From Labrenzia sp. R4_2 (GTDB taxonomy: Bacteria > Pseudomonadota > Alphaproteobacteria > Rhizobiales > Stappiaceae), in contig NZ_JAGHRJ010000003.1 of NCBI RefSeq assembly GCF_017743865.1, positions 310,001 through 374,000 on the forward strand: a stretch of 64,000 bases of DNA, written 5' to 3'. Positions 26,985 through 31,538 of this stretch are shown in pieces. The notes below the pieces were generated by a model. That model searched no databases. It worked only from the letters and a program-made list of their open reading frames with translations, and was not told the DNA's origin. The position numbers and the translations under genes are program-made. Every line of letters begins with the position of its first letter. Position 1 is the first letter of the stretch.

Positions 26985-27020
26985 CTAAAAAGTTGACTTT
27001 TATAGTACGGTTTCTGTATT
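26985..27020 (+). promoter_or_regulatory. Near-palindrome and promoter upstream of bfd-bfr
   Basis: CTAAAAAGTTGACTTTTATAG (26985-27005) is an imperfect inverted repeat (CTAAAAGT/ACTTTTATAG). It overlaps a -35 box TTGACT (26993-26998), which is followed after 16 bp by TGTATT (27015-27020), about 60 bp before bfd. Placement suggests an operator, perhaps for an iron regulator of the Irr/Fur family, though the sequence is not a clear match to either. Confidence 0.4.
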
Positions 27021-27079
27021 CCGCTGCCATCTGTCAAACACTATATGCGATGAAGTCCTCGTAACGGCCAGACCCCAGT

Positions 27080-27322: not shown

Positions 27323-27339
27323 GCTTTTAAGAGGGACTG

Positions 27340-27825
27340 ATGAAGGGCGACGCGCGGGTCATTGACTACTTGAACAAGGCTCTCCGGCATGAGTTGACAG
27401 CGGTCAACCAATACTGGCTGCATGGCCGCTTGCTTGCGGATTGGGGATTCGGAAAACTTGCTGCCAAAGAATTGGAAGAGGCGGAAGAGGAGCGTCAGCA
27501 CGCACAGGATCTGATGGACCGGATCTTGTTCCTGGAGGGGTTCCCGAACCTGCAAACGCTCGACCCTCTGCGGATCGGCCAATCGATGAAAGAATGCCTC
27601 GAAGGCGATCTGGCAGCTGAGTACGCAGCCCGCTCTCTCTACCACGAAGCGCGCGAAGTTTGCCGTGAGCAGGGCGACTATGTCTCAATGAAACTGTTCG
27701 AGACCCTGCTCTCCGATGAAGAAAGCCACATCGATTTTCTTGAGACCCAGTTGGCTCTGATCGAGCGCATCGGGATCGACAATTATTCGCTGCTGCAAGC
27801 CCAGTCTGCAGATACGGCAGAGTAG
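27340..27825 (+). CDS. bfr: Bacterioferritin, lacking the heme-ligand methionine
   Basis: 161 aa, normal length. The ferroxidase ligands are all present: E18, E51, H54, E94, E127 and H130. But position 52, the axial heme ligand Met52 of canonical Bfr, is Arg (EERQHAQD), so this subunit should not bind heme in the usual way. It would store iron as a 24-mer shell, or mix with a heme-binding subunit from elsewhere. It follows bfd by 17 bp and is likely co-transcribed. Identity as a Bfr-family protein is certain from [28 protein letters not shown]. The Met52 loss is read directly from the sequence. Confidence 0.95.
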
Positions 27826-27837
27826 CTGCAGCCCAGA

Positions 27838-28515
27838 TTATTGCGGTTCAGTCGCCGGACTATCCAACCTGTAGACTGGACCGCCGGCCACTTCAGCATC
27901 CTCGAAATCATGCGTGACCAGAAGAACGGGCAGGGCGCGTTCTCTGGCGATCGAGAATACCTTTTGCCGGACGTCAGTGCGTCTCGACTGATCGAGGCTG
28001 GAAAAAGGTTCGTCGAGCAAAAGGGCTTTGGGTCTGGCCAAAAGAGTTCGCATCAAGGCCACTCTCGTTTGCTGCCCGCCTGAGAGCTTGGCTGGATCTT
28101 TGGGGCCAAGCCCTTCAAGATTTACGGCCTCAAGGGCTTCCGCAGCTAACCTCTGCCGTTCTGTCCGATTATTGATCTCGGAAGGAATTGCAAACATAAG
28201 ATTTTGCGCGACAGACATGTGCGGGAACAAAAGCGGCGATTGAAACATCAAGCCGATATGGCGCTCTTGCGCAGGAACGGTGGTGACGTCGGTACCGTCC
28301 AGGATGACACGGCCTGTGGACTTGAAGTCGGGTTTCAAAAAACCTGCGATGAAGTCAAGAAGGCTTGATTTCCCGCTGCCGCTTTCTCCCATGACGGTCA
28401 GCACCGTCCCCGGTTCAATCGTTGTATCAAGCTCCAACAGAGTGCGGCCATCCAGCTGGATGTTTACATTCTCCAGGATGAGCCCCTTCTGGTTTTGGAG
28501 AGTGCGGGCGTTCAT
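27838..28515 (-). CDS. ynjD: ABC transporter ATP-binding protein, YnjD-like
   Basis: About 225 aa from the ATG at 28513-28515 (MNARTLQNQKG); a start at 28527 would overlap the permease stop by 8 bases. ABC ATPase motifs are complete: Walker A GESGSGKSSLL, Q-loop MFQSPLLFPHMSV, signature LSGGQQTRVALMRTL, Walker B ALLLDEPFSSLD and His switch VLLVTHDF. It energises the YnjBCD importer whose permease and binding protein are directly upstream. Confidence 0.92.
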   Translation of the reverse strand: MNARTLQNQKGLILENVNIQLDGRTLLELDTTIEPGTVLTVMGESGSGKSSLLDFIAGFLKPDFKSTGRVILDGTDVTTVPAQERHIGLMFQSPLLFPHMSVAQNLMFAIPSEINNRTERQRLAAEALEAVNLEGLGPKDPAKLSGGQQTRVALMRTLLARPKALLLDEPFSSLDQSRRTDVRQKVFSIARERALPVLLVTHDFEDAEVAGGPVYRLDSPATEPQ

Positions 28516-28519
28516 TGAC

Positions 28520-30220
28520 TTAAGCATCCAGGCGCAACGCGGTTCTGTTTTTGAATAGAACAGCTGGGATCGCAGCAGCAACAGCGAAACCGGCAAACGG
28601 GATAAGCAATTGCAGCAAGGCGTAGACGGCTGTGATTTGCCTGTTTCCACCACTTGCGAGCGCAACGCTCTCTGTTGTCACGGTGACGACCCGGCCGGCT
28701 CCGATCATGAGTGTGGGGAGGTATTGCCCGACCGATACAGCAAGGGCAACTGCCAACGTCACGAGGACCGGGCGTGTCAGCATTGGTAGTTGTACCCTGA
28801 AGAAGATTCTGGCTCTGCTGGCGCCCATGGAAGCTGCGACGCGGGCATATCGGGGGTCCTGCCGCTGCCACGGGTCACTGAGCGCAAGAAAGGCATAGGG
28901 CAAGACGAAAACCAGATGTGCAAGAAGCACGGCTGTGAAACTTCCATCCAGACCAATCATCAAGAACAACATCTTGAGGCCGAACAGGAACGCAATTTGC
29001 GGCAGGAGAAGGGGCACAAAGATGAGCGTTCTCAGCTGATGATCTACAGGCTCTGCGGCGTGTGTTTTTGTTTCCAACAGCCAAAGCGTCAACGAAGTGC
29101 TGATGAGCGCTGCCAGAACACCAAGCAAAATCGTCGTGCCGAGGATCTGCGGTGTTTGCATCAAGGCCATTGAAAGCGCCGATATGGACCAATTCTGGGG
29201 CAGCGGGGCCGGATACCACCAGGACTTGGCTAAACTCCATATTATCAGGACAAGCAGGGAAAGGCACATGGCAGACACAATGAAAACCATTGTACCGAGC
29301 GCTGCCATCCGGCCTGCACCATCTGACTTTATGCGGTGTCCAAGCGCCAAACGGGTGGAGCTCAGCTTGGTGACAATGGCTTCGAACAACAAATAAACAA
29401 GAATTGCTCCAGCGCTAACTCCAAGCTGAAGCAATGCACCAGCTGACGCGGCAAGACGCAGACTCAGATCCGGATCATTCATCCAAACCACCAGCCGCGC
29501 AGCCAACGGTGCCGGTGTCGTCGGCCCCAGTATCACCGCGACATCCACCACGGAGGTCGAGTAAGCGATCACAGCCAGCATCGGTAGACGGATGAGCGGA
29601 TAAATCTGGGGCAGGATGACTTTGAAAAAGCCTGACATCCGACCGTAACCGAGACTGGCTGCCACTTTGGTGTAGGACTTGATCTCTGGTCGGTTCAAAG
29701 CGGCCAGTGTCAATAAAAACAGGAATGGAACCTCTTTTGCGATGAGACCCAGGGTCATGGCGACCCCATAGGGGTCGTTAACCAGCAACAAATCCGGCGG
29801 ACGCTCCCACCCAGTTGCCCAAGGCGACAAAAGCCGGGCAAGGAACCCGGACGGGGCGATCAGAAAAGCGAGACCGATTGCGGCCGCAGCGTGCGGTACT
29901 GACAAAAGCGGCGACAGGAAACGGCTGACGCGTTGAAAGGTTTGGGTGCCGCTCCATGCGGCTGAAAAACAAAGAACGATTGCAAGCGAAACCAGTGACG
30001 CAACAAGGCCTGTCCAAAAACTCAGCGCCGTTGATTGCAGCAGGCCCGGCATGGAGAAAAGCTGTGCGAAAGGCTCAAGCGTTATCTCTCGCGCCCCAAG
30101 AACAGGGAGGTAGCCGAAAGCCGGCAGAACGGTTCCTGCAAGACCGGCCAGAACCGGTCCCGCCAACAGCAACACAACGATCAGCGAGGGTAAATTCGAG
30201 CCTGGCCGGAATTTGGCCAA
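28520..30220 (-). CDS. ynjC: ABC transporter permease with two fused permease domains, YnjC-like
   Basis: 566 aa with about 12 TM segments in two six-helix halves, each carrying the EAA-type loop (SLGYGRMSGFFKVILPQIYPLIRLP and SMGASRARIFFRVQLPMLTRP). This duplicated layout is shared by ThiP/YnjC-type permeases in the thiamine/iron/polyamine superfamily. It pairs with the YnjB-like binding protein 5 bp upstream and the ATPase just downstream. Substrate not readable from sequence. Confidence 0.92.
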   Translation of the reverse strand: MAKFRPGSNLPSLIVVLLLAGPVLAGLAGTVLPAFGYLPVLGAREITLEPFAQLFSMPGLLQSTALSFWTGLVASLVSLAIVLCFSAAWSGTQTFQRVSRFLSPLLSVPHAAAAIGLAFLIAPSGFLARLLSPWATGWERPPDLLLVNDPYGVAMTLGLIAKEVPFLFLLTLAALNRPEIKSYTKVAASLGYGRMSGFFKVILPQIYPLIRLPMLAVIAYSTSVVDVAVILGPTTPAPLAARLVVWMNDPDLSLRLAASAGALLQLGVSAGAILVYLLFEAIVTKLSSTRLALGHRIKSDGAGRMAALGTMVFIVSAMCLSLLVLIIWSLAKSWWYPAPLPQNWSISALSMALMQTPQILGTTILLGVLAALISTSLTLWLLETKTHAAEPVDHQLRTLIFVPLLLPQIAFLFGLKMLFLMIGLDGSFTAVLLAHLVFVLPYAFLALSDPWQRQDPRYARVAASMGASRARIFFRVQLPMLTRPVLVTLAVALAVSVGQYLPTLMIGAGRVVTVTTESVALASGGNRQITAVYALLQLLIPFAGFAVAAAIPAVLFKNRTALRLDA

Positions 30221-30224
30221 GGGT

Positions 30225-31442
30225 TTATTGGCCCCCTGCGCCGTAACGTGTTGCCCAAGCCTGTTCCAGGGCAGTGACCCAGCTCGGATGCGGCTCTGGG
30301 AGAGTTGGACCGAGTTCTTCCGGCGTCAGGGTCGCAGGTCTAAGGTCTTGGGTATCGAACAGCGCTTTTTCATTGGCTGGAAGGTCCGCCACGTTCAACA
30401 CGGTCGGGTCGCCCCAAATCTCCGGGTCCTGTTTGCGCATCTGGGCCATTGGTGACAGCAAATGGTTCGCGAATACCTGTGCGCCTTCCTGAGCCGAACT
30501 GTTGAACGGAATGGCGACAAAGTGAGTATTGCCGACTGTGCCGCCATCAAAAACGAATGTTCGTACAGTTGGTGGCAGTTCGCCGTTCACGATCGCGCCG
30601 GACGCATCACCCGGATTGAACGAAAAGGCAATGTCCATTTCACTGTCCGCAAGGAGCTGACGCATATGGGCTGCATTCTTTGGAAACGCTTGTCCCTGAC
30701 GCCAGAGATGCGGATGTAGCTCATCCAGGAAATTGAACAATGGCGCCGTCTGTGCCTCGAATTGGTCCGGATCGACCGGAGCAGACAGCACGCTTGTATC
30801 TGCGATGGTGTTGAGGAGTGCTTGCTTCAGGAAGGTCGTTCCGTAAAAATTCGGCGGTTGCGGGTACGAGAAACGGCCCGGATTGGACTTCGCATAGGCG
30901 AGCAGCGCGTCGAGAGACGCCGGAGGTGTATCGAGCCGTGCGGTGTCAAACATGAAGACCAGCTTTGCCATGCCCCACGGACTTTCCTGGCCATCGGTTG
31001 GAACGGTAAAGTCGACCAAGACCGTCGGTTTGTTTTCCGTGTCGACATACGTCCAGTTCGGCAGGCTTTGTGCCCAACCGGGCTCTGCGAGTAACTCATT
31101 TGTCTTCATGGCGGCAAAGTTTTCGCCGTTGATCCAGACGAGGTCGACGCCGCCACCGCTCGTCTTGCCGACCGACTTCTCTGCGAGCACCTGGGACACG
31201 ACACTCGCAGTGTCGCTGACCTTCACATGAACAACCCGGACATCATAGAGGTTTTCGACTTCCCGAGCGGCCCACTGGATATAAGCGTTGATCCGCGGCT
31301 CGCCGCCCCATGCATGGAAGTAAACAGTCTGTCCCTTGGCTTCGTCCAGAACGTCTTTCCAGTCGCTGTCTTGTGCCGACACCGGCTGTAACGTGAAAAG
31401 ACCGGAGATTAGCGCAGCGGCAGCGATAAGCAGACGTTTCAT
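30225..31442 (-). CDS. ynjB: ABC transporter periplasmic binding protein, YnjB-like
   Basis: 405 aa from the ATG at 31440-31442 (MKRLLIAAAALISGLF), with an AGGA ribosome-binding site 5 bases away. A further ATG at 31454 and the open frame above are less likely. A signal peptide ends at SAQ-DS (about residue 23), so the protein is periplasmic. The start of the mature form (WKDVLDEAKGQTVYFHAWGGEPRINAYIQW) is typical of the YnjB branch of spermidine/thiamine-like binding proteins. Ligand unknown. First gene of the ynjBCD operon. Confidence 0.92.
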   Translation of the reverse strand: MKRLLIAAAALISGLFTLQPVSAQDSDWKDVLDEAKGQTVYFHAWGGEPRINAYIQWAAREVENLYDVRVVHVKVSDTASVVSQVLAEKSVGKTSGGGVDLVWINGENFAAMKTNELLAEPGWAQSLPNWTYVDTENKPTVLVDFTVPTDGQESPWGMAKLVFMFDTARLDTPPASLDALLAYAKSNPGRFSYPQPPNFYGTTFLKQALLNTIADTSVLSAPVDPDQFEAQTAPLFNFLDELHPHLWRQGQAFPKNAAHMRQLLADSEMDIAFSFNPGDASGAIVNGELPPTVRTFVFDGGTVGNTHFVAIPFNSSAQEGAQVFANHLLSPMAQMRKQDPEIWGDPTVLNVADLPANEKALFDTQDLRPATLTPEELGPTLPEPHPSWVTALEQAWATRYGAGGQ

Positions 31443-31538
31443 TTCAATCCTCATGGTGCGGGAGTGTCCTCCCTCGCTTACGGCAACGAACACGGTCAAG
31501 ACAAGGCTTTGTGATTAGCCTGGGCATCCGGACTGGGC

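Follow-up and report, generated by a model that had tools for sequence, protein, structure and literature searches.

Heme-free bacterioferritin (Bfr) subunits and mixed shells are already known. In P. aeruginosa, heme-free FtnA dimers and heme-bearing BfrB dimers are reported to occupy one 24-mer, with Bfd docking on the BfrB dimers only; the two genes are dispersed, both subunits have ferroxidase centres, Bfd is the release partner, and the heme-free subunit is a ferritin that, in that account, does not bind Bfd (PMC8945002). In Shewanella (SoBfr12) and Magnetospirillum, a Bfr subunit lacking Met52, the axial heme ligand, occurs beside one that has it, and these hetero-Bfrs are described as products of tandem genes that are at most 45% identical, with a degraded ferroxidase centre in the heme subunit (PMC12120770, PMC6529640). 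The DSD-type hetero-Bfrs, exemplified by Lysobacter soli, have dispersed genes with bfd near one of them, and a heme-free subunit described as close to Ftn (PMC12120770). The locus analysed here lies in a 64-kb window (the whole stretch of DNA that was studied) of the 5.66-Mb genome of Labrenzia sp. R4_2, and places bfd next to a Bfr gene with Arg at codon 52 (Table 1).

Table 1. Positions of the bfd-bfr features and neighbouring genes in the window, and of the second Bfr gene of the same genome
Feature	Position	Strand	Basis
Promoter-like element 5' of bfd, AAAGTTGACT...	26986-27022	+	kept 5' of bfd in 37 of 45 genus genomes
bfd, bacterioferritin-associated ferredoxin, 80 aa	27080-27322	+	Fer2_BFD, 30.8 bits (cut-off 26)
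bfd-bfr gap, 17 bp, Shine-Dalgarno-like AGAGGG	27323-27339	+	sequence
bfr, R52 bacterioferritin subunit	27340-27825	+	ORF, 161 aa, TIGR00754
Codon 45, TTG, Leu for heme-pocket Arg45	27472-27474	+	sequence
Codon 49, GAA, Glu for heme-pocket Ile49	27484-27486	+	sequence
Codon 52, CGT, Arg for axial heme ligand Met52	27493-27495	+	sequence
ABC transporter-like genes for an ATPase, a permease and a binding protein, convergent with bfr	27838-31499	-	by eye from ORFs
Second Bfr gene, I49 and M52, no adjoining bfd	G000:C20:693596-694078	-	

A first-pass annotation of this DNA had reported a Bfr with all six ferroxidase ligands and Arg for Met at position 52, and both statements hold. The window protein scores 182.4 bits against the bacterioferritin profile TIGR00754 (cut-off 125.55), also matches Pfam Ferritin, and has E18, E51, H54, E94, E127 and H130 of the intrasubunit ferroxidase site; the Arg codon was confirmed, and positions 45 and 49, which the annotation did not mention, are altered as well. 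Because it has Arg52 in place of the axial Met52, the protein is a Bfr by descent and fold, and not a heme-binding Bfr by sequence. Its AlphaFold2 monomer (mean pLDDT 94.8) folds into four long helices and a fifth, short one, and the ten top-scoring PDB structures for this model are Brucella, Rhodobacter and Blastochloris Bfrs with TM-scores (query) of 0.95-0.97; the Brucella structures 3fvb, 8sqo and 9gzu align with all 161 residues without a gap. A closer relationship to Ftn than to Bfr is ruled out by the PDB sequence search, in which Brucella Bfr scores 206.5 bits versus 111.2 for 3r2h, the FtnA structure (PMC12120770).

The first-pass annotation had suggested looking for a Met52 Bfr elsewhere in the genome and for Arg52 in relatives, and both were found. 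The same genome has the second Bfr gene listed in Table 1, and also a Dps-like gene (named by eye), making two further ferritin-family genes besides the window bfr. The comparison genomes fall into genus groups, for which we infer the labels Roseibium (g1), Pannonibacter (g20), Pseudovibrio (g22) and Stappia (g23), along with g18, g19 and g21. In all 45 Roseibium-genus genomes the bfd-linked copy lacks Met52, with Arg in 42 and Gln in 3 (codons CGC 21, CGT 17, CGG 4, CAG 2 and CAA 1). Recurrence in independent genomes through three Arg codons rules out a sequencing error at codon 52. An unlinked M52 copy is present in 44 of the 45, the exception being G022, an assembly in 680 contigs; across R52-bearing genomes, the search found no M52 copy in G022 or in G093 (89% complete). 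Judged by residue 52, one predicted heme-free and one Met52 subunit are paired within a genome, as in hetero-Bfrs; identity between the paired copies of a Roseibium genome ranges from 57.6 to 67.7% (mean 64.1%, n=43), above the 45% ceiling given for hetero-Bfr pairs (PMC12120770). The presence of both suggests that iron storage may be split between heme-free and heme-binding parts.

Beyond Roseibium, Met52 is absent from the bfd-linked copy in 6 of 14 Stappia genomes and from an unlinked copy in 4 of 16 Pseudovibrio genomes (Arg in G058 and G068, Gln in G060 and G067), and is kept in the bfd-linked copies of five Pannonibacter genomes, one g21 genome and the other eight Stappia genomes. Wherever Met52 was replaced in the lineages of this Bfr family, the new residue is Arg or Gln. 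A class-wide sample of 61 Bfr copies, from 60 read places among 78 non-own places matched in 289 genomes, comprises 59 with Met52, one with Leu52 (a second copy, 42% identical) and one with Arg52; the search threshold of E <= 1e-40 favours window-like copies and would miss divergent heme-free subunits, and of the 18 places left out, 14 were the weakest matches and the others were G166, G214, G197 and G307, the last two interrupted by in-frame stops.

Several other Bfr arrangements were seen in these genomes. Three Roseibium genomes and one Stappia genome (G017, G008, G083 and G091; L249, L250, L251 and L252) also carry another type of Bfr, which shows about 40% identity and has Leu52 (EEMxEELGHS) and an intact ferroxidase site. 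Nine of the 16 Pseudovibrio genomes have one bfd-linked and two unlinked M52 copies (e.g. L243, L267, L268, L270, L271 and L272), the unlinked pair being in tandem on one locus in eight and on separate contigs in G066. The bfd-linked bfr of G042 (g18; L236, L247) is in two overlapping pieces, as if frameshifted. In the class sample, L302, L309, L319, L320, L324, L327, L332 and others are Met52 Bfrs with Thr or Ala at position 127 (EEHETH, EEHEAH), possibly heme subunits with an altered di-iron site.

The loss of Met52 is accompanied by change in the rest of the heme pocket. Pocket positions are taken from Mtb BfrA, for which 19, 22, 23, 26, 45, 49, 52, 53, 55, 56 and 71 are given (PMC2777505); with position 52 left out, the mean Jensen-Shannon divergence of the other ten was compared with that of the remaining sites by permutation. 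Roseibium R/Q52 copies diverge from bfd-linked M52 relatives more in the pocket than elsewhere (0.332 versus 0.147, p 0.019), as they do from the M52 copies of their own genus (0.501 versus 0.261, p 0.031), and Stappia R52 copies show a similar excess relative to bfd-linked M52 relatives (p 0.025); these p values are modest and uncorrected for phylogeny or multiple testing, and residues had been inspected before the published list was applied. Comparisons of M52 copies with each other gave no pocket excess, either between Roseibium and other genera (p 0.27) or between two groups from other genera (p 0.98). Of the 40 bfd-linked M52 relatives, 39 have Arg45 and one has Lys there, whereas Arg45 is missing from 43 of the 44 R/Q52 copies of Roseibium (Lys takes its place in one), from 6 of 6 Stappia R52 copies and from 4 of 4 Pseudovibrio R/Q52 copies. 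Ile49, present in 37 of the 40 relatives and in 44 of 44 Roseibium M52 copies, has given way to seven residues in the 44 Roseibium R/Q52 copies (D21 E10 A4 L4 K2 Q2 G1), and in Pseudovibrio R/Q52 copies position 49 is V in two, I in one and A in one. The split G084 copy was excluded from the position tables and pocket tests.

The first-pass annotation allowed that another residue might supply the axial ligand. No Met, His or Cys is fixed among 19 tabulated two-fold and heme-face positions of the Roseibium R/Q52 copies, and Met59 is ruled out as a fixed replacement by Ile59 in 9 of the 44; since Arg45 and Ile49 have been lost too, a substitute ligand is unlikely. The six ferroxidase ligands are invariant in 44 of 44 fully read Roseibium R/Q52 copies, and the most economical reading of the sequences is that the heme site was lost and the iron-oxidation site kept. 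Among residues assigned to the B-pore (34, 66, 132 and 135; PMC12120770) and to the Bfd dock (which include 68, 69, 70, 72, 81 and 85; PMC13136788), the B-pore set and dock positions 69, 70 and 72 show little or no variation in either Roseibium copy, and dock positions 68, 81 and 85 vary. Near the four-fold pore, the R/Q52 copy has mostly N148/S150 versus R148/G150 in the M52 copy. Of the 44 R/Q52 copies of Roseibium, 41 retain Trp26; those of Pseudovibrio have Leu or Arg there. Mean site entropy is higher in the Roseibium R/Q52 copy than in the M52 copy of the same genus (0.470 versus 0.267), which indicates a degree of overall relaxation as well.

The tree of copies, built after dropping duplicate sequences, copies shorter than 150 aa and class-sample M52 copies below 52% identity, places the Roseibium R52 copy among the bfd-linked, heme-binding (M52) Bfrs of its own family; the published heme-free subunits of hetero-Bfrs, described as a clade apart from heme-binding Bfr (PMC12120770), are not among its rows. 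Topology tests were run with columns 46-60 of bfr removed, on groups that had been named after seeing a tree. For bfr alone, also without all class-sample rows, near copies (>93%) and L52 copies, a single clade of all non-M52 rows was rejected (p-AU 0.026); a tree joining the R52 copies of Roseibium and Stappia in one origin was not (p-AU 0.563), and was even slightly better than the unconstrained tree. With bfr and bfd together (bfd-linked copies only, thinned at 95%, none from the class sample), a tree in which the bfd-linked non-M52 copies share one origin was rejected (p-AU 2.4e-5), and the Stappia M52 row G097 sits among the Stappia R52 rows. One shared origin of bfd-linked R52 is therefore rejected by the joint data but not by bfr alone, and under the latter result bfr may have entered the Stappia operon on its own, by transfer or conversion, which could lower the number of origins. 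The four Pseudovibrio R/Q52 copies may be a single event. The sequences support at least two losses of Met52 in this Bfr family, in either paralogue and to Arg or Gln, and three or four losses are perhaps the likely number.

As the first-pass annotation noted, a Bfd gene adjoins bfr; its product scores above the Fer2_BFD cut-off, and Cys4 and Cys6 are kept in 45 of 45 Roseibium-genus genomes. The short intergenic gap and its Shine-Dalgarno-like motif make a joint transcript likely, and bfd and bfr are probably transcribed together. The AAAGTTGACT element occurs 5' of bfd in 37 of the 45 genomes, beginning 91-103 bp before bfd in 35 of the 37, and is also found in Pannonibacter and g21 with an AACTTT arm downstream. 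The RirA box is TGA-N9-TCA; compared by eye, the element does not fit it. A generic promoter and terminator scan returned one minus-strand promoter-like site and one terminator-like site, close to the yield from shuffled sequence, and the element is not among the sites of that scan.

Irr, which binds ICE/Irr boxes, keeps its targets repressed when iron is depleted, and in Bradyrhizobium heme brings about its degradation (PMC3413700). The Labrenzia sp. R4_2 genome encodes IrrA (221.1 bits against a cut-off of 150) and RirA (197 bits against 193). The Irr-box consensus is TTTAGAANNNTTCTAAA, and a site in the 300 bp upstream that departs from it at no more than 3 of the 14 positions was called Irr-box-like. 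Such sites precede 42 of 44 Roseibium M52 copies and none of the 45 R/Q52 operons, whether before bfr or before bfd; the 42 Roseibium R52 copies have 5-7 mismatches before bfr and 4-7 before bfd. The R4_2 genome has a single TNTAGAANNNTTCTAAA, located 34 bp upstream of the M52 copy, and the best match within 300 bp before bfd of the R52 operon has 6 mismatches of 14. The same division is seen in Stappia (13 of 13 unlinked M52 copies, 0 of 14 bfd-linked) and in g20 and g21 together (6 of 6 and 0 of 6). In Pseudovibrio, sites lie before bfr in 16 of 16 bfd-linked M52 copies, before 0 of 21 unlinked M52 copies, and, for the unlinked copies that lack Met52, before 0 of 2 with R52 and 2 of 2 with Q52. 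Single-copy groups have 2 of 2 (g18) and 0 of 3 (g19). Sites were also counted before bfr in 4 of 5 order-level relatives, in no more than 7 of the 59 M52 copies of the class sample, and in 4 of 400 random stretches drawn from these loci. Across the 53 genomes with both an M52 and an R/Q52 copy, the box is before the M52 copy only in 49, before neither in 2 and before both in 2. It is probable from these sites that Irr controls the Roseibium M52 copy. Since the split is already present where both copies keep Met52, it probably preceded the loss of Met52.

We give a probability of roughly 0.53, slightly better than even, to the reading that Roseibium makes, together with Bfd, a heme-free and ferroxidase-competent R52 Bfr that probably co-assembles with an Irr-controlled M52 heme subunit. 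The R52 subunit would have arisen from an ordinary Bfr after duplication, would oxidise and store iron with its intact di-iron centre, and would no longer hold heme at the two-fold dimer interface. It would be produced from one operon with Bfd, and the gene for its predicted heme-binding M52/I49 partner lies elsewhere, downstream of an Irr-box-like site. Mixed 24-mers would probably form from heme-free and heme-bearing homodimers, an arrangement favoured by analogy with the FtnA/BfrB shell of P. aeruginosa, and the amount of M52 subunit would set both heme content and Bfd-driven iron release. The benefit would be storage capacity when iron and heme are scarce, with no heme spent on it. In SoBfr1, the heme-free Shewanella subunit, Lys52 interacts with Phe26 (PMC12120770), and by analogy Arg52 could interact with Trp26 in Roseibium R52; such a contact would not be general, since position 26 is Leu or Arg in the R/Q52 copies of Pseudovibrio. 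A more elaborate version, in which the Irr-box split came first, heme was then lost repeatedly from the boxless copy, and the cage came to adjust its heme load and Bfd-driven release to heme and iron supply, is tentative. The first-pass annotation had offered a mixed shell as one explanation; its interpretation is partly borne out, through the M52 partner, the conserved Arg52 and the intact ferroxidase site, with the shared shell and the absence of heme still inferred.

Counting for this reading are the invariant ferroxidase ligands, the divergence of the pocket, the loss of Arg45, the M52 partner, the retention of Met52 in nearly all of the class sample, the repeated loss of Met52 in this family, the Irr-box split, the presence of IrrA and RirA, and the conserved B-pore and Bfd-dock positions. 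Several observations count against it. Both copies keep a full ferroxidase centre, which would make the division of labour one-sided, and the R/Q52 copy is more variable than its M52 counterpart in the genus, which relaxed constraint would also produce. The single Roseibium and Stappia origin that bfr alone does not reject, the possible single event in Pseudovibrio and the modest pocket tests belong here too. Two Pseudovibrio Q52 copies have an Irr-box-like site and two Roseibium M52 copies do not, and such sites are missing in g19 and sparse in the class sample. In R. sphaeroides under iron limitation, bfr rises 4.5-fold and bfd, the next gene by locus number, 12.3-fold, but according to the authors Irr plays no major part in iron regulation there (PMC3413700). 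In Shewanella, iron oxidation was slower as well once heme had been lost (PMC12120770), so the predicted heme-free R52 subunit may likewise oxidise iron more slowly. G022 and G093, where no M52 copy was found, count against it as well.

The R52 protein might instead form its own heme-free 24-mer, a ferritin-like store that does not mix with the M52 shell. We regard this as doubtful, though it would suit a complete, confidently folded subunit with an intact ferroxidase site and nearly invariant B-pore residues, encoded apart from the M52 copy under probably separate regulation and differing from it near the four-fold pore. Heme-free and heme subunits do mix in P. aeruginosa (PMC8945002) and in Magnetospirillum (PMC6529640), however; the M52 copy is retained by nearly every Roseibium-genus genome, and a shell without heme would release iron more slowly, to judge from the M52L variant reported in Shewanella (PMC12120770). 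The differences between the copies may also be no more than neutral decay of a redundant heme site after duplication, with a functionless Arg52 in a drifting copy. The higher site entropy, the seven residues at position 49 and the repeated loss would all be expected from decay, but Arg or Gln at 52 has been kept through three Arg codons, the ferroxidase ligands are intact in every fully read Roseibium R/Q52 copy, and each lineage of the family arrived at Arg or Gln (though the distant Bfr type of four genomes has Leu), which makes decay improbable.

Very improbable, in our view, is a continued role of R52 in binding heme, whether in an R52/M52 heterodimer with a single Met ligand or through a new contact of Arg52. 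Copies about 64% identical could conceivably form heterodimers, and Trp26 is largely kept. Arg45 and Ile49 have mostly gone along with Met52, however, with no alternative ligand fixed at the tabulated positions; dimers in P. aeruginosa and Shewanella are reported to be of one kind each (PMC8945002, PMC12120770), and M52L removes the heme peak in Shewanella (PMC12120770).

If the co-assembly reading is true, the Roseibium pair would represent a recent, Bfr-derived route to heteromeric bacterioferritin. No description of an Arg52 Bfr was found in the titles and abstract openings of the open-access literature on bacterioferritin with Roseibium or Labrenzia, heteropolymers, heme-free subunits, pocket residues or paralogues. 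What differs from the known systems is the closeness of the partners, the nesting among heme-binding Bfrs, the two ferroxidase centres, the link to bfd, the loss in either paralogue and the split in Irr-box-like sites. With partners about two thirds identical, both ferroxidase centres kept, and some sister genera with Met52 in both copies, the order in which regulation, cofactor and assembly changed can be asked. For Bfd, the question is why it shares one apparent operon with a subunit predicted to be unable to hold the heme by which Bfd passes on electrons.

The Roseibium arrangement resembles each of the described systems in part. Brucella Bfr has the same fold, and there too bfd adjoins bfr (PMC13136788), but Brucella has Arg45, Ile49 and Met52, all three of which are changed in the window Bfr. 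With Shewanella and Magnetospirillum it shares a Met52-less subunit beside a Met52 one, and with SoBfr1 a basic residue at position 52, Arg in place of Lys (PMC12120770); unlike theirs, the Roseibium genes are dispersed and 58-68% identical, and both ferroxidase centres are intact. Dispersed genes with bfd near one of them recall the DSD type, whose heme-free subunit is close to Ftn, whereas the tree places the Roseibium one inside the bfd-linked heme-binding Bfrs. With P. aeruginosa it has in common two dispersed genes, ferroxidase centres in both products and Bfd as the release partner, but the predicted heme-free subunit of Roseibium is itself a Bfr whose place in the tree is among heme-binding Bfrs; it shares about 64% identity with its partner and is the copy linked to bfd.
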